This document shows positions 3,601 through 27,222 of a stretch of 42,641 bases of DNA, piece by piece; within the stretch, counting starts at the first letter, position 1; each line of letters opens with the position of its first letter. Origin of the DNA: Candidatus Uhrbacteria bacterium RIFOXYB12_FULL_58_10. GTDB lineage: Bacteria > Patescibacteriota > Patescibacteriia > UBA9934 > GWF2-40-263. The notes under the pieces were generated by a model. The model was not told the origin of the DNA. It did no database searches and worked only from the letters and a program-made list of their open reading frames with translations. Location of the stretch: contig CALRHL010000007.1 of NCBI GenBank assembly GCA_943359455.1, positions 1 through 42,641 of the forward strand. The letters run 5' to 3'. The position numbers were made by a program, and so were the translations under genes.

Positions 3601-4879
3601 CGTTCGAATAATACGCATATCGCATGAAGTCCTTGTACGGCCCGTCTCCAAGTGAGGAAAGATTGTTAATCGCACCCGGGTCATGTACGGCACGATCGAC
3701 TTCTGTAGAAACGGGTTCAATGATCTGGTCCCAGGCCCAAGCATTCAGTGCTTCGCGAAATGATTTTAGTCCATCCAACTGGACTGTTCCGTACCGATTG
3801 ACAACACGTTGTCTTTCATTTTCTTTTCGAGCGTTTTCAATTAATTTTTCTAATGATCCATCTTGTTTATCTGTACGACCATCGAGTTCACGTAATACTG
3901 CCTGTCCATTGTCTGAGCGCCAATCATATTCACGTCCAGGAAATAAGATTTTGAGTTCTGAAATAAAATCCCTAAATGCCAACTGTACTCGAACATCCTG
4001 AAATGGGTTCAAATGATGAAATGCGGTTGTTAATCGAACAGAATGATCACTCCATCTTTTTTTCAGTGCATCCTTATTTGTCGTAAGCTCTTGCAAAAAT
4101 GTCGTCCATGACGCAACACCATTATCTAGAAAAAAACGACCGAATACTTCAAAGGAATCATTTGCAACAGAAATAACAGCTCGACCTTTTTCATCAAAAG
4201 CCGAATTCAATCGATGCCACTCCAAATGTGCAATCGCATCGCGTTGTTCTTGTGTTCGTCTTGGATCGTTCCAGTGTTTCTCATTGAGTGCAACACCCGC
4301 ACGAAGCGTCGGAAGCAAACGAGCGAGTTCTTCTCTATCTGTATAACAGTATGTCTGGAAAACCGAATCTGGAACACCGAACCCGTTCAAAAAAAGAATG
4401 GCAACTTTTTCACTTTCGCGAAATCCTGCTTTTGGCAGTTCCTCATATTGAGAAGCGGTTGGATCATCCATGCGATACATCAAATCCTCAAAGCGCTCCG
4501 ATGTTGCTACCAAAAGTGCGAAAATCGGAAAATCTTTTGCGAGATCAGGATGGGACTGAATCCACTGACGCATCTCAACGAGCACATTTGCAGACTGACT
4601 CACACTGTCTGAACGGAGCCGCATTTCCCAATTCGGAGACTGTCCTAAGTCGGGCTGACTCGCAAGGACAAAAGTGAGCTGTTCACGTAACCGACTCCAC
4701 GCCATCTGAACAATCTCGAGAGTTAATTCATTATCCGTCACCCGAAATCCAGGCTCTCGCAACGCATCAACATCCTTCTCACCATGAAACCAACCCGACG
4801 TAAAATCTGTCTGTCGGGCAGTTTCCTTTCCGAGGATACGTTGAAACAACAAGTTTGATTGTTCAGAATTATAAGACAT
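632..4879 (-). CDS. Large protein with C-terminal UbiB/ABC1 (AarF) atypical kinase domain
   Basis: KTGQVLAEQPD (KxGQ), LGSASIKQVHLA, LALKVQRP, GDVFHADLHAGNI, LIDLGSAG motifs in C-terminal third; long N-terminal region without recognised domain. Confidence 0.8.
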   Translation of the reverse strand: MSYNSEQSNLLFQRILGKETARQTDFTSGWFHGEKDVDALREPGFRVTDNELTLEIVQMAWSRLREQLTFVLASQPDLGQSPNWEMRLRSDSVSQSANVLVEMRQWIQSHPDLAKDFPIFALLVATSERFEDLMYRMDDPTASQYEELPKAGFRESEKVAILFLNGFGVPDSVFQTYCYTDREELARLLPTLRAGVALNEKHWNDPRRTQEQRDAIAHLEWHRLNSAFDEKGRAVISVANDSFEVFGRFFLDNGVASWTTFLQELTTNKDALKKRWSDHSVRLTTAFHHLNPFQDVRVQLAFRDFISELKILFPGREYDWRSDNGQAVLRELDGRTDKQDGSLEKLIENARKENERQRVVNRYGTVQLDGLKSFREALNAWAWDQIIEPVSTEVDRAVHDPGAINNLSSLGDGPYKDFMRYAYYSNVNKTPEVAYRLLERMDALFGKGCEINQAHGRMNQYVREHYMEGGAYDSSWQTQVKKEKGLENGPEPMLHEFDLWHLEERMSFEEVSKNYQSAQDLYVFTDQAKDEQGRAVSTIPSNAARLMCAALNPRFEIMATRAVNGEFVSQDVQGFTKDVLRFAPEANAFRDFFLENAAHVQLDRWLRATFSKERLLEEGIHLTVRTVKLQEVFGVVDPTVLEGGYMREYPLARVRGLDSAVHGFTIEEKRQFTDLIFSFTESFSPATRALYERIASELEMDLLKDEYRKRREHFEQTHTSMTREMRVTMNEQAFDKVLERVLEHFPEPSHHRDSVLRTLVTDIATTSEQTDRLQKLTFTYHERHPSVDPDSVEKNTFSASETMKDYLALFTDRHTRKDVLLWFFGGVMPQDRYLEGKTFQVNEQEKVRAFWALSSEERRTVFYSALLGEGGLFQTEPFISDRNVISNEIVLNDFVTQFSEVAFEDAFEDPEWKKTFTIIFKEVFCQYSPARRVELFCSMSERLREFKLHGKKFSSGEAMRLLLEQVGVVGVKTGQVLAEQPDILDENTRQELSKLKDGAQPFDKQGVFSYVRAAGWYDAEEGRPVIAEVGALLGSASIKQVHLARTVDGKDLALKVQRPNITRNFREDMRVLSAVVTRLRDFEYDVPEWLVQEVEKAVEREMDFGFEASASKKMSESLRERGASLRVGGKDLVLRVPEILALHTKETNPRRPMQLIMEEFVHGLTLEDIRRLQETGKGTREEIQKTQEKIREKLHRLYGAAAPAIEKQYAKFNLEEIQSQIGIELLYQIASGDVFHADLHAGNIMINLTANQEQATLIDLGSAGEGHPDFLELTVQVLLLKQGIGNSTRVAEILSGLSEEKDVESWKSDIEQTVSRARDAKEVFTNVLALVLKKSEGNVNHDLRMLFKALSAAGGHLQILSDRLSTGIMEGMVRAQVENRAPFEVLMENPDIQKLLPLAPRLPMLAGFLGLSTGS

Positions 4880-7565
4880 ACAAGTCTGTTGGTTGTATCG
4901 TCGTTGATGTTATGACTCTTAGCTCACCTGCATGATCCGCAAAATATCTCGCAAACATTTCAGATGCGAGAAATTCAACGGCACGATTCAATTGATCAGC
5001 ATCCTTTCGATCTCTCTGTTGTTTTTCCCACTCGCTTCGTTGTCGATGATATTCTTGTTCTCGGATTTCATACTCCTCATGCCCTGGATTCATCCATCGC
5101 ATGCCAAGATTCACTGCGCGGGCATGGAGTTGCTGAAACCAATTTTGGTCTGGATCAGAAGATTGCCGCGCTTCGCTCGCAATGACAGGACTGTCAGATT
5201 TTTTCTTCGATTCAAAAAACTCTTCTGCGGACGTCTCACGCAATCCTAAACGAATCCACTGTTCAAACAATTTCTTCTTTGCCTGAAACAATGTGTCATG
5301 TGCATTTGAAATCGTCGTCAAATGTGGAATGTTTGCCATCTCTCGAATGAGGATTAACCGTTTTCCAATTTCTGATACATCGATTGTCTCCAGAGATTCG
5401 AGAAAAACTGTGCTGATCTGTGTCGCAACTTCATCACGCGTGATGTGTGTTCGTTCACTGTGTTTCTGAATATCCTCAGGCAACCCCGCATTGCGCGCTT
5501 CCTCTAAAATAGGCAGATGTCGATACAGTTCGATCATTTCCTTCCACACTGCTTTCGGAAACTCCGTAGGTTTTTGCTGAAAAAAAAGTTCGTTTATTTT
5601 TGATGATAACAGCCATTCAGCCTCCTCTGACCTTCCTGCCTGTTTTAGAAAAAGATCGCGAGCAACTGCACGAAGTTCGAATAACTGACCGTGATCCTGC
5701 TCCTCTTGACGAATAAATTCAGATTCTGAGGCCAACCACACGGTGTGAAGTTTTGGAACATGCCTGGTCTGTCTTGGTTCAGAATAGGTCACGGAATTCC
5801 CAAGAACAGAACGAGCAATCGGTCGCAAATCAAATGCAGGAATTTTATCTTCAATCGCTTTTCCTCGCAAAGCCATTTCTTCCTCGTTTCGGGCGATATG
5901 AATGTATTGTCCATTTCCGATAATTTTTGCGAGCACCATGAGGACATACTCGCGTTTGTTTTTCGGAGCAATTCCATCCATCGACAAATTATCCCAAAAA
6001 AGCTTTGAGGCTTTCGTCGTTCCCTCAATGATTTCTTGTAATGATTGAATGGGTTGTTCCGAAGGCGTGAGAGGAATGAGCGACGACTCTTCATGCAGAA
6101 CATCGTTTAATTTTTTCATCAGCTCTTTTTGTCGATCAGAATCCAGTGGTGTTACTGTTGGAAGATTATCTTCATTAAGTGTCCTTAAGTGATTTTTTAC
6201 CATTCCATGTACACGTGTATTCTTACCTTGGTACTCATTTGTTATAAACGGTTTAAAAGACCAAATGGAAACATCCGACGATCGTTTACTTTTGGAAATA
6301 AACGCATTCGCCGCGTAAACGAGTGCCTTCGACAACCCAAGACTCCCTGTCTGTAATTCCTGTAGAGCAGCGATCGTCCACGATTCTGAATCCAAAAAGA
6401 CCGTATACGCCTTCATCGCGAGCTCTGCATCTTGGTACGTGGCGCGTGGGTTATCTTTCAAAGATTGAATGATCGCATCCCAATCTTCGGTTGTGCGTGC
6501 TTCGTCCAGTTTTTTTAACAGTTCTTCTCGACAAAATTCACGAGCTTCTCCCACAGACAACTCCCCGAGCGGTTCTAGTATCACCTCAGCAGAAAACCAT
6601 ACGCGTTCCGGACGCTGAAATTCGCCTTCAAGGGCTTTAACACGATTTTCAGAAATAGGGTGTTTTCCAAAAAAATGTGAGATGAGTTTATCTTCTTTGT
6701 TTTTTGAAAGCGTTTCGAGTGCTTGATACAGCTCAATCGCCGCGCGTGGATTGTATCCTGCTCGATCCGCCGCTTCCATTCCCGCAAGATCTGAGTCGTA
6801 CTCAAAACGTTTCGAGATATTTAGATCTGTTGGTGGTTTATCAAGATCGTATTCAGGTTGGATCACATGCTGAAGTTCGTGACCGAGTAATCCAGCGAGA
6901 TGATCTTTCGATATTCCTTCTTTTCCCATCTTTTTTAAAATCAAATCGAGCCTCGACACAAGTCCAGAATGAACAAAGATACGAACAGGATCGTTTGACG
7001 GGGTCGAATACAACTCTCCTTCTTTATCAACCTGAAAAATAAACGCGTTCAGTTCCGGCGATCGAGTAATTTCTAAAACGACCGGACGGCGAAATCCCAT
7101 TTCACGTGCAACGTCTTGGAGAACTTCATTCATTTCGCGGAACAGTTCTGACGATTCTTTTTCACGATCGGACATGAGTTCTTCCATTCCATCGACATAT
7201 TCTCTCAGTCCGCGAGACCTGATATCCTTCACAAATTTCTGCGTTTCCTTTCGTGCTTCCAAAAATGCCTTCCGTTCTAGAACGTCCTGATCGCCCATCA
7301 GTAACCGCTCCCGGTCGATTTCGGTCAGCAATTGCACAACATGTTCGTCCTCCACCCCAAGATCTTTCGCAGATAATTTTATTTCCTTTCCTTCCTCCGC
7401 TCGATTCATGGATTGAAATGCCCGTGACGCAATCTCAAACAATTCTGGCTTTGTAAACGAAATGCGATGCAGTAACTCAAGCGATCGCGTCGAACGCAAA
7501 AGCCGCACCTCCGGCCGAGCGCGATACTGCTCCTGTTGTTGGATACGTTCAACGAGAGTGGACAT
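4869..7565 (-). CDS. M48-type zinc metalloprotease domain in a large protein
   Basis: LLGHELQHVIQ (HExxH) and downstream FEYDSDLAGMEAADRAGY; ATG at 7565 preferred over upstream extension; overlaps the UbiB-like start by 11 nt. Confidence 0.75.
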   Translation of the reverse strand: MSTLVERIQQQEQYRARPEVRLLRSTRSLELLHRISFTKPELFEIASRAFQSMNRAEEGKEIKLSAKDLGVEDEHVVQLLTEIDRERLLMGDQDVLERKAFLEARKETQKFVKDIRSRGLREYVDGMEELMSDREKESSELFREMNEVLQDVAREMGFRRPVVLEITRSPELNAFIFQVDKEGELYSTPSNDPVRIFVHSGLVSRLDLILKKMGKEGISKDHLAGLLGHELQHVIQPEYDLDKPPTDLNISKRFEYDSDLAGMEAADRAGYNPRAAIELYQALETLSKNKEDKLISHFFGKHPISENRVKALEGEFQRPERVWFSAEVILEPLGELSVGEAREFCREELLKKLDEARTTEDWDAIIQSLKDNPRATYQDAELAMKAYTVFLDSESWTIAALQELQTGSLGLSKALVYAANAFISKSKRSSDVSIWSFKPFITNEYQGKNTRVHGMVKNHLRTLNEDNLPTVTPLDSDRQKELMKKLNDVLHEESSLIPLTPSEQPIQSLQEIIEGTTKASKLFWDNLSMDGIAPKNKREYVLMVLAKIIGNGQYIHIARNEEEMALRGKAIEDKIPAFDLRPIARSVLGNSVTYSEPRQTRHVPKLHTVWLASESEFIRQEEQDHGQLFELRAVARDLFLKQAGRSEEAEWLLSSKINELFFQQKPTEFPKAVWKEMIELYRHLPILEEARNAGLPEDIQKHSERTHITRDEVATQISTVFLESLETIDVSEIGKRLILIREMANIPHLTTISNAHDTLFQAKKKLFEQWIRLGLRETSAEEFFESKKKSDSPVIASEARQSSDPDQNWFQQLHARAVNLGMRWMNPGHEEYEIREQEYHRQRSEWEKQQRDRKDADQLNRAVEFLASEMFARYFADHAGELRVITSTTIQPTDLYVL

Positions 7566-23993: not shown

Positions 23994-24022
23994 TTGACAA
24001 ACTTTTAAAGCTGTGCTACCAT
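23994..24022 (+). promoter_or_regulatory. Sigma70-type promoter, divergent from the one at 23861-23889
   Basis: TTGACA-17 nt-TACCAT. Confidence 0.65.
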
Positions 24023-24028
24023 GCTGTT

Positions 24029-24150
24029 ACGAAGATGAGTTCAGTGATCGGTTAACACCAGAGCTGATCAAGATCGAGAGGAGAGATTCAGAGACACGAA
24101 AATTAAAACCTGGGGCAAGCGAAACAGAAATGTTTACGCCCCGGGTTTTT
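24029..24150 (+). ncRNA. Candidate small RNA or transcription attenuator leader (~120 nt)
   Basis: Starts just after promoter 23994-24022, ends in a strong intrinsic terminator, no convincing ORF. Confidence 0.5.
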
Positions 24151-24151
24151 T
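24109..24151 (+). terminator. Rho-independent terminator
   Basis: aacctggggc...gccccgggtt followed by ttttt. Confidence 0.8.
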
Positions 24152-24154
24152 TGT

Positions 24155-24660
24155 CGGCTCAGAAAAATGATCGCGATTTAGCATCCCCCAGGTGCGATGT
24201 CGTGATCAGTTTCCTGGGTCGACCAAAGGCCCGGATAACGTGGGGTGCTTGCAGGCGCCTTACGAGAAAGCACTAGGGTAGAAAGCTACTGGAGGTTCGC
24301 TCCCAGACAGTCAACAAAGCGGCGCTTTATGGAGTCACCGCCTACGATTGTCGAAATGCGAAAGGACTTCATGCTGTCCCACCACCCCATCAATGTGTGG
24401 CCACACAAAGACGGGAAAGCGGTGAGTGATGGATGAAGTTCTAAGGAGACGATAGGACGCCCCGTAGAGCGTTCCGACAATATCCACTGCAACAAACCTG
24501 TGGAACAGGTAGTGCGAGACCCACGTGGAGATGAGTAACCCCATCCTTCCGCCAAGTCCTGTTGCAAAACAGCAGGGTTCCGCCCTCTACAGCGGAAGAG
24601 TGGACTGGGCTGGGTACGCACTCTAGCTTGAACCTACCACTCGCGGGTATCGGAGTCATC
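24155..24660 (+). ncRNA. Candidate structured RNA segment with no convincing ORF (strand tentative)
   Basis: Many short perfect hairpins: gtag-aaag-ctac, gtgtg-gc-cacac, cctgt-gga-acagg, ctgtt-gcaa-aacag (GNRA loop), tccgc-N8-gcgga. Confidence 0.35.
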
Positions 24661-24677
24661 CGAACCGCACACGCCTC

Positions 24678-24756
24678 GAGGACGCAGTAGATGCATTCTG
24701 ATGCGTCCTCACCTCCCTCCTGAATATGTTCCTAGAGAACATATTCAGGAGGGAGG
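24678..24756 (+). promoter_or_regulatory. Double-hairpin SD-sequestering leader, copy A
   Basis: Hairpin gaggacgca...tgcgtcctc (24678-24710), 1 nt, then perfect 20-bp inverted repeat cctccctcctgaatatgttc/gaacatattcaggagggagg (24712-24756) containing the SD. Confidence 0.65.
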
Positions 24757-24765
24757 AACGTGGCA

Positions 24766-24846
24766 ATGTCGCCGATACGTTCTATCCAGGAGTTCCCATG
24801 CGTTCCATCTCCATTGCGAAGGCGTTGCGTACCCGCAAGCAGTTGA
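24766..24846 (+). CDS. Candidate 26-aa leader ORF (MSPIRSIQEFPCVPSPLRRRCVPASS)
   Basis: ATG 9 nt after ggagggagg, same spacing as in copy B; overlaps the next CDS out of frame. Confidence 0.35.
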   Translation: MSPIRSIQEFPCVPSPLRRRCVPASS

Positions 24847-25304
24847 AGGGCCAGATCTCCGATCTGAGCAAGCGCGCCACCGGGTGTGCGACGTGGATCG
24901 AAGGAGCCTCGCGCGACTTCGACTTCACAATCGTTGACTTGGACCGCAAGGCCAAGATCGACGAGCTGGTGCGCCTCGAGACGGCCATCGCTGTTGCTAA
25001 CGCAACGGCGACCGTCACCTGGCAGGGCCGCGCGATGCCTCTGACCGAGGTGATTCGCCGCCAGGAAGAGCTGAAGGGGGAGATCGTGTATGTCACATCT
25101 CTCTCGACCCGTCGCGGCCCAGAGCGGCAGCACACGGGGGAGTACAGTGCCGACCGCCAGCCCGTCATGGTGACGGTCAACTGGTGCTCTGCCTACTCCG
25201 AGCCGGAGCGCGTCCTGCACCTCGCCTCACTCCGCGCCCAGTGCGAGGAGCTGAACGAGCTGCTGGAGGAGGCCAACCACCGAAATACGGTGGCTCTGGC
25301 CTAG
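24798..25304 (+). CDS. 169-aa coiled-coil-rich protein, possibly DIP1984-like
   Basis: caggag SD before ATG 24798; layout (SIAKALRTRKQLKGQISDLS..., LEEANHRNTVAL near C-terminus) recalls DIP1984 family from memory. Confidence 0.6.
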   Translation: MRSISIAKALRTRKQLKGQISDLSKRATGCATWIEGASRDFDFTIVDLDRKAKIDELVRLETAIAVANATATVTWQGRAMPLTEVIRRQEELKGEIVYVTSLSTRRGPERQHTGEYSADRQPVMVTVNWCSAYSEPERVLHLASLRAQCEELNELLEEANHRNTVALA

Positions 25305-25589
25305 CCCCCTCCGCCCATTTCCCTTTGGGGAAGGCGGCCGCACTGAGGTGAGTAGACCAACTGGAACTGGATCGACTTCGGTCGTGAAGGGGAAGGAAAG
25401 GTCGCGAAAAAATCCCAAAAGGATTTCGATATCCTTAACCGGATATCGATACAACGCTCCCGATAGCGACAGCGAGTTGTAGGATTCAAGGTTTAAAAGC
25501 CTTAGGTCTGAATACTCAAAGCTGAAGCATTAGGAATTAGGGCTTGTATATTCGCCTCACCAACGTCGGTCGCTGACCCCACCCCCTCT

Positions 25590-25660
25590 GCCAAGTACTC
25601 GCTACTTGGCCCCTCCCTCCTCATCATCATGAGCTTGTCGAATGGTGATCGGAAGGGAGG
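25590..25660 (+). promoter_or_regulatory. Double-hairpin SD-sequestering leader, copy C
   Basis: Hairpin gccaagta-ctcgc-tacttggc (25590-25610), 1 nt, cctccctcc (25612-25620) pairing with ggaagggagg (25651-25660), inner stem atcatcat/atggtgat. Confidence 0.6.
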
Positions 25661-25665
25661 AATAC

Positions 25666-26331
25666 ATGAATTCAACGCAAGCTTCTTCTTCGTCCCCTCG
25701 TCAGTGGTTTGTGCTCGAAGGGGACTGGGGCGGACAGATCTACGCCACCGTCCCAGCTCACCTCATGCCCACCTGGGCACGGCGCAAGCGAGTTCGTAAA
25801 GCACTCGCACACATCGACCGGCTCAACTGGAAGCAGCCGGACGGAACTCAGACGTACATCATTCAGGACTTCGGACCGCTCGACGCGACCGCGGTATACG
25901 CCGGGGTCGCGACCGAAGACGAATTGGCAGTCTTTCTCGAGGCGCGCGAGGCGCTCGAACGCGCACAAGACGCCGCTCCGCGCGGCGTACTCGTCGAGCA
26001 CACTCCCGCCAAGCCAATTTCTTGGCGTGACAGCGAGACATACGTCCGAGGCTGGCGGCCCGTCGGCGGCGTCCCCGGAGGGATGGGCGGCGGAGCCCTG
26101 CTGGCTAACGATATTTGGTTGAACGTGTCCGTGCTCATGCACGGCCTCGAGGAGGTGAACCGCGTCCGGGCCATCCTCGGAATCGCCCCACTTGCATCGC
26201 TCAGAGTTCACTGGAGCCAAGAGGACCGCCGGTACGCCGACTATCCTCAATGGCCACACAGACTACCACCCCGACAACGCCCTTCCTTGCGTCGTCTCCG
26301 CGCGCGCATCCGGCCGCGCTGCATCCGGTAG
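25666..26331 (+). CDS. Hypothetical protein (GC-rich orphan); C-terminus possibly frameshifted
   Basis: ggaagggaggaatacATG start; Arg-rich tail after RRYADYPQW looks atypical. Confidence 0.6.
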   Translation: MNSTQASSSSPRQWFVLEGDWGGQIYATVPAHLMPTWARRKRVRKALAHIDRLNWKQPDGTQTYIIQDFGPLDATAVYAGVATEDELAVFLEAREALERAQDAAPRGVLVEHTPAKPISWRDSETYVRGWRPVGGVPGGMGGGALLANDIWLNVSVLMHGLEEVNRVRAILGIAPLASLRVHWSQEDRRYADYPQWPHRLPPRQRPSLRRLRARIRPRCIR

Positions 26332-26446
26332 CCCTTCCATTCGCGACTCGATCGTGATGTGGAAGGCAGATTAGGCTCGGTACGTACAATGCACGACAAG
26401 CCGGCTTGCGGAATCAAAGCGATTCGAAACCGCACGCCCTTTTCTC

Positions 26447-26521
26447 GAGGACGTAGTAGACGCATTCTGATGCGTCCTCACCTCCCTCCCCGTCGCGACT
26501 GAGTCACGGCTGGAAGGGAGG
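26447..26521 (+). promoter_or_regulatory. Double-hairpin SD-sequestering leader, copy B
   Basis: Hairpin gaggacgta...tgcgtcctc (26447-26479), 1 nt, cctccctcc (26481-26489) pairing with ggaagggagg (26512-26521), inner stem ccgt/acgg. Confidence 0.62.
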
Positions 26522-26530
26522 AAAACAGCA

Positions 26531-26644
26531 ATGTCTTCTCTGAGGTGCTTGGCACAACTCGTGTGCTGGCCCTCTGGGTCGGCATGCAAAGATAAACCCG
26601 GTAACGGGCATAAACTCTGGGGCGGCAAAAACCAGGGGAGCTGA
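26531..26644 (+). CDS. Candidate 37-aa small protein (MSSLRCLAQLVCWPSGSACKDKPGNGHKLWGGKNQGS)
   Basis: ATG 9 nt after ggaagggagg of leader copy B. Confidence 0.4.
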   Translation: MSSLRCLAQLVCWPSGSACKDKPGNGHKLWGGKNQGS

Positions 26645-27215
26645 CGCAAGTCAACTTCATAGCGCCACGTTCTGAGATATGTGCCGGAAATTGCTCCGGA
26701 TGCAACACATGTTAAGGAATGTTCAAAAGGGGTGGTACCCTTGCGAAAGTTAGTTGTCCAAGTCGATACCAAAGACAAAGACAATGCGTTGGTTTGGGTG
26801 AGTCACCCTCTGCGTTCGAGACCGACAATTGCCACCAGCCAATGTAGCTAAGCTGGAGCATACGTCGAACGCGTTCACGGGAATTGATGAGCCTCCTCTG
26901 GCGTAAAGTCGGAGTAAAAAATCGGATGTGTGGGCAGCTCCCCCACATGTCCGACCTGCCAACCATCTAGGTCGTACAACCTGGGTGGCGAAGCGGAGAA
27001 GGTTCCCGTGTCCTAAGTCGGGGTAGCTCCTGACGACAGAATTCCATCTGGTCATCGCCGTGAGGTGGGTGACATACGGAAAGGTTAAAAGCACGGTCGG
27101 GGTCGCAAGCCCTTACGTCCGCCCCTAAAAAGGCGACTGTGCAAGGTGAGAAGATGTGTCGTTTAATCTCACCACTTTCTAAAAGGGACAATGATGGCTT
27201 TGGCCTCTTGTCCCT
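26645..27215 (+). ncRNA. Candidate structured RNA / 3' region ending in an intrinsic terminator
   Basis: tcggatgtgtggg/cccacatgtccga 13-bp stem with G-U pairs, ctt-gcga-aag, ccgga-N6-tccgg, ggtgaga...tctcacc, then terminator; no convincing ORF. Confidence 0.4.
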
Positions 27216-27222
27216 CTTTTTT
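27184..27222 (+). terminator. Rho-independent terminator
   Basis: agggacaa...ttgtccct followed by cttttttatttc. Confidence 0.8.

Follow-up and report, generated by a model that had tools for sequence, protein, structure and literature searches.

What is the role of a pair of abutting hairpins that occurs three times on the plus strand of the window (the whole stretch of 42,641 nucleotides from Candidatus Uhrbacteria bacterium RIFOXYB12_FULL_58_10 that was analyzed)? The original prediction placed these double hairpins at 24678-24756, 25590-25660 and 26447-26521, and inspection of the sequence, folding and a structural scan locate all three. In copy A, hairpin 1 (24678-24710; near-identical at the same junction in the related genomes G041 and G040) is followed by stem 2 (24712-24756), in which CCTCCCTCC pairs with GGAGGGAGG. 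The corresponding structures of copy B are located at 25590-25610 and 25612-25660, the position of hairpin 1 matching that of the hairpin following the P0001 gene in G040, G041 and G014, and those of copy C are located at 26447-26479 and 26481-26521. The spacing between hairpin 1 and stem 2 is exactly 1 nt in each copy, as had been proposed. Two finer details were corrected: the G-U pair attributed to hairpin 1 of copy B is found in copy C (hairpin 1 of copy B is an unrelated sequence), and the "bulged A" of copies B and C is, on folding, part of a 1x1 C-A mismatch (most relatives have U-A at this site, and copy A has C-G). Fold-energy z-scores against dinucleotide shuffles are -8.75 (A), -3.81 (B) and -4.04 (C), and 0 of 200 shuffles folded as well; across the copies, fold energies of the double hairpins range from -31 to -68 kcal/mol (37°C). 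CCTCCCTCC occurs 13 times with at most one mismatch (4.8 expected). Copies A, B and C are the only plus-strand matches in the window at the threshold of the double-hairpin scan, a loose threshold at which shuffled sequences of the same length yield 0-4 weaker-looking matches; homologues in other genomes are the stronger proof of these structures.

A covariance model was built first from four copies and then from fourteen. With these models and the structural scan, approximately 20 additional copies were found, in each of the five genomes sampled from the genus and, in diverged form, in two related genera. Homologues therefore exist in the related genomes in which a covariance-model search had been suggested, and their pairing is preserved. 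G040 has eight copies (two on a second contig), G041 has seven (including those found by the scan), G039 has two or three and G042 has one; the diverged copies, in G014 and G021, came from a structural scan of this locus in a further 20 genomes of the family, combined with the model. Nearly all copies lie downstream of one gene for a TrmB-type regulator, which is found widely across the family (for the second contig of G040, its own link to the TrmB gene is not visible). In G021 (L063, reverse complement 3850-4650), two diverged copies flank a 163-aa ORF, and each is preceded by an extra hairpin (GCTCGAG..CTCGAGC), making a triple arrangement in that genus.

Beyond this, nothing else convincing was found in a class sample of 381 genomes and a phylum sample of 380 genomes, and model R2 matched its own genome alone across the 380 phylum genomes. 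Model matches in G158 and G371 were rejected as they resemble chance GC-rich palindromes. G393, from another family, has a similar hairpin-1 core and a GGAGGAGAGAAACATG start, with an E-value (1.7e-4 per genome) that is too weak over 381 genomes; this sequence (L035, reverse complement ~1007-1090) consists of a GTAGATACATTCTG hairpin core, then CCTCTTCTC..GGAGGAGAG and AAACATG, and may be a very distant copy, if a statistically weak one. In IMG/VR, P0001 has no relative, the exact stem-2 arm pattern occurs in a single contig, where the hairpin context is missing, and the core of hairpin 1 does not occur. The statement that no named family has this layout agrees with our searches of Rfam 15, in which the window contained only tRNAs at the gathering threshold, and the window region and three related loci had no relevant match at permissive E-values. 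The papers searched contained nothing on such elements in these bacteria. This distribution bears on whether the element is a REP-like palindromic repeat that has no specific function at the locus. The palindromes are indeed repeated and more alike within a genome, but REP-type repeats are scattered in many copies between genes genome-wide, and here whole-genome matches are confined to the one or two contigs carrying the locus. The copies are, furthermore, always between units, always an abutting pair and always in operon orientation, and the arrangement that follows them is conserved according to the downstream gene (see below). A REP-like repeat with no specific function here is very improbable.

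Across 14 copies, 97.5% of cells are paired compared to 86.0% in shuffles, and 12 of 23 pairs show two-sided changes (0 of 500 shuffles), these counts being inflated by the use of an alignment fitted to the structure. When partners were shifted by 1-3 columns, pairing fell to approximately 50-58%. Hairpin 1 is the most variable part, with 10 of its 13 pairs changed on both sides, and the CCUCCC/GGGAGG base of stem 2 is nearly invariant. Entire hairpins have been swapped for unrelated sequences that still pair. P0001 homologues in two genomes of the genus bear the same leader with CCUCCCUCC/GGAGGGAGG replaced by CCUCCCUUC/GGAAGGGAGG, and their inner stem is wholly different in sequence with its pairing kept. 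The element thus shows the compensatory, helix-preserving changes that are the general mark of a structured RNA. Of the proposed cis-regulatory RNA family, the genuine structured family with covariation is supported, and the general translational function is not. The plus strand folds better than the minus strand in only 6 of 20 copies, and wobble-pair asymmetry shows no bias towards the plus strand. Because the helix is about equally stable on the minus strand, folding alone does not prove that the element acts as RNA.

It had been proposed that the buried run of stem 2 serves in each copy as the Shine-Dalgarno sequence (SD) of an ORF. This is correct for copy B only, where GGAGG of the stem 2 3' arm is the only SD of P0002, a 221 aa orphan (25666-26331, plus strand) with two homologues in G041 and one in G039; the SD is similarly buried for the homologues at G041 10587 and in G039. 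In copy A, the coding ORF at 24798-25304 (plus strand; P0001, 168 aa, weakly DUF6847-like, with homologues in six further genomes of the family and a third-codon-position excess) has its own SD, CAGGAG, immediately 5' of the ATG. This SD follows a third small hairpin, GAACGT..ACGTTC, the two together occupying 24757-24797, and a similar segment is found in other copies of this type. By eye, the stem 2 3' arm of copies of the A type could alternatively pair with a downstream CGTTCCATCCC, in a helix much weaker than stem 2. The 37-codon ORF following copy C was rejected as a gene: it changes at all codon positions, mostly non-synonymously, and lies inside a conserved structured RNA (the C-RNA, described below). 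P0001 shows a coding pattern and this small ORF does not.

Approximately 22 copies can be divided in the same manner. In six (window B; G041 8920, 9217 and 10496; G040 5571; G039 8067), GGAGG of the stem 2 3' arm is the sole SD, 5-11 nt before the ATG. In about nine (window A; G041 3878 and 9739; G040 1837, 4868, 5840 and two on contig C63; G021), a separate free SD comes after either a spacer or a third small hairpin. In about seven (window C; G040 2807 and 3555; G014; G041 4855 and 5726; G042), there is no ORF at the stem 2 arm. The arrangement tracks the downstream gene in each genome seen: P0001 is always of the free-SD type, and P0002 and the MKDL ORF are always of the sole-SD type. Three genomes keep the buried sole SD for their P0002 homologues, and two genomes keep it for their MKDL homologues. 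Translation gating of small orphan ORFs therefore fits about 6 of 22 copies, while the rest precede non-coding RNA or free-SD genes; the buried run is not the downstream SD in the copies generally, and SD sequestration is not supported as the general role of the element.

These counts also weigh on the possibility that each pair is a single cis-regulatory leader (a riboswitch, a thermometer or a protein- or sRNA-controlled element) that hides the SD until a signal is received. The six sole-SD copies, conserved for the P0002 and MKDL homologues, are as this predicts, and the family has a canonical anti-SD that the buried sequence matches (CCTCCTTTC can be seen at a 16S 3' end in L066). It does not account for the nine or so copies that precede free-SD genes or the seven or so without an ORF. 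RNA thermometers have marginal stability and melt near physiological temperature, and stem 2, at tens of kcal/mol, is beyond the stability of a simple thermometer. A conserved ligand-type core was not seen. Hairpin 1, moreover, goes with the upstream unit. Its cross-genome similarity is 0.55 where only the upstream unit is shared, 0.28 where only the downstream unit is shared and 0.30 where neither is shared. Among 18 informative pairs, a small sample with unit labels assigned by us, none of 2000 permutations gave as good an association with the upstream unit, and that with the downstream unit (p 0.01) arises from pairs sharing both units. As hairpin 1 tracks the upstream unit, the pair is not one co-inherited leader, and we consider the single-leader explanation rather unlikely.

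Could the element instead act as DNA, either as single-stranded or cruciform hairpins that border exchangeable modules (as attC sites do) or as plain repeats for homologous recombination? The arrays differ between genomes by module changes, and their break falls inside stem 2: G041 3873-4900 is similar to G040 1834-2852, and from 4929 onward G041 is similar to G040 from 3643 onward. Stem 2 is homogenised within genomes (similarity 0.58 within compared to 0.44 between), and both strands fold equally well. Ordinary recombination between repeats, however, predicts identical breakpoints, and the location 5-11 nt before start codons is left unexplained. No integron integrase (TIGR02249) scored above the cut-off in any of six genomes; matches below the cut-off are Xer-like background that is also seen in all 14 control genomes. 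By eye, attC boxes (RYYYAAC/GTTRRRY) are absent from the element ends of the listed copies. An action as DNA is improbable.

A likely sigma-70 promoter (TTGACA-17-TACCAT with an extended -10, by consensus match) is located at 23994-24022 on the plus strand, and by eye G039 and G014 have similar promoters in the corresponding position. It is followed by an attenuator-like hairpin of the operon leader (ACCTGGGGC..GCCCCGGGT, then TTTTTTT; 24106-24155, plus strand; -21.6 kcal/mol), homologous to hairpins in G039 and G014. The whole of 24022-24670 is a long ORF-free leader with stretches conserved in G039, G040, G041 and G042. At the other end, directly after copy C, lies the C-RNA (26522-27182, plus strand), a conserved structured non-coding RNA of ~650 nt that is also found in G040 and G014. 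Its three-genome consensus fold is -450, shuffled columns give -332 (sd 10), and 35 pairs covary on both sides across the three sequences. It has no Rfam match and was not found in phage records; a match in G164, a 25-bp stretch within the coding region of a HIT-type-like gene, was judged to be coincidental. The C-RNA is possibly more interesting than the hairpins. In the window it is the last unit of the array, and the place of a hairpin 1 after it is taken by an intrinsic terminator (27184-27220, plus strand; -17.6 kcal/mol followed by TTTTTT, supported by alignment); in G040 and G014, this place is occupied by a GAGGACG-type 3' hairpin. One G041 junction (L030, 10587-11216 to 11312) has such a hairpin 15 nt past a stop codon, without stem 2 and with a free SD. 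Judging from orientation, the one promoter-like site and the terminal hairpin, the units are probably co-transcribed. A second conserved non-coding stretch, ncRNA2, was observed in three genomes of the genus (L030 4948-5400; L032 reverse complement 3661-4111; L031 3959-4291). The G041 array also encodes a Ro60-like protein (L030 7351-8898; TROVE 5e-8, Ro60 vWA 2.5e-13) beside long structured RNAs; Ro60-like proteins elsewhere bind non-coding RNAs.

The copies stand at junctions before ORFs and non-coding RNAs alike. Our preferred explanation, although held with somewhat less than even confidence, is that the element is the punctuation of one operon transcript and also gates the translation of a subset of its genes. 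A single long transcript, starting at 23994-24022 and ending at 27184-27220, would contain several ORFs and several long structured RNAs, with each copy marking a junction at which hairpin 1 would be the 3'-terminal hairpin of the upstream segment and stem 2 the 5'-terminal hairpin of the downstream segment. The long helix of stem 2 would be both a candidate processing site for a double-strand-specific RNase of the RNase III type and a 5' protector, and cutting would divide the transcript into separately stable RNAs. For ORFs of the P0002 type, expression may also be blocked by this helix and begin only once the helix is opened or cut, as in adhE mRNA. In E. coli, RNase III unmasks buried SDs, as established for adhE and lambda cIII, and its cuts leave stabilising hairpins (PMC5371410). 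Stem 2 is a plausible RNase III site, of compatible length and position; the near-invariant CCUCCC/GGGAGG is more conserved in sequence than such a site requires, which counts against processing. A broader proposal, to which we give a low probability, is that this would be a modular array of a kind not described before: orphan genes and several large structured RNAs would be exchanged as whole units, with the double hairpin, a dedicated module, acting as RNA processing mark and crossover point in one. The locus offers a testable case of a bacterial operon in which coding segments and large non-coding ones are set apart by an RNA element that has two parts, covaries and is repeated; little is known of RNA regulation in this small-genome lineage. 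At least one new structured RNA, ~650 nt long, also comes from the locus.

Several known systems resemble parts of this arrangement. In RNA thermometers and translational riboswitches, the SD is paired to a local anti-SD arm, as in a subset of the copies here; in contrast, the helices described here are much too stable, there is no conserved aptamer core and most copies are away from a start codon. In integron cassette arrays, structured palindromes of variable sequence (attC) lie between small orphan genes that all share one orientation. The present arrays similarly have small orphan genes in the same orientation, variable palindromes between them and modules gained and lost, but they lack an integron integrase and attC boxes, a TrmB gene and a promoter stand at their head, and the element is in a 5' leader position. 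In polycistronic operons, intercistronic hairpins stabilise or process RNA. Like these, the element lies between cistrons and would form the end of one RNA while shielding the one after it; unlike these, it is double, its two hairpins abut, it has a near-invariant CCUCCC/GGGAGG base, and it recurs at many junctions of one operon with large non-coding RNAs. As in the adhE and lambda cIII leaders (PMC5371410), an SD is hidden by a helix, and cleavage of both strands could release this SD or leave behind hairpins that stabilise the RNA, but those are single leaders, while here a two-hairpin junction is repeated and most copies do not hide the only SD of a gene. What is new is an element of two parts that is repeated and confined to one locus, and that would work in the manner of known intercistronic hairpins combined with RNase-controlled SD masking.
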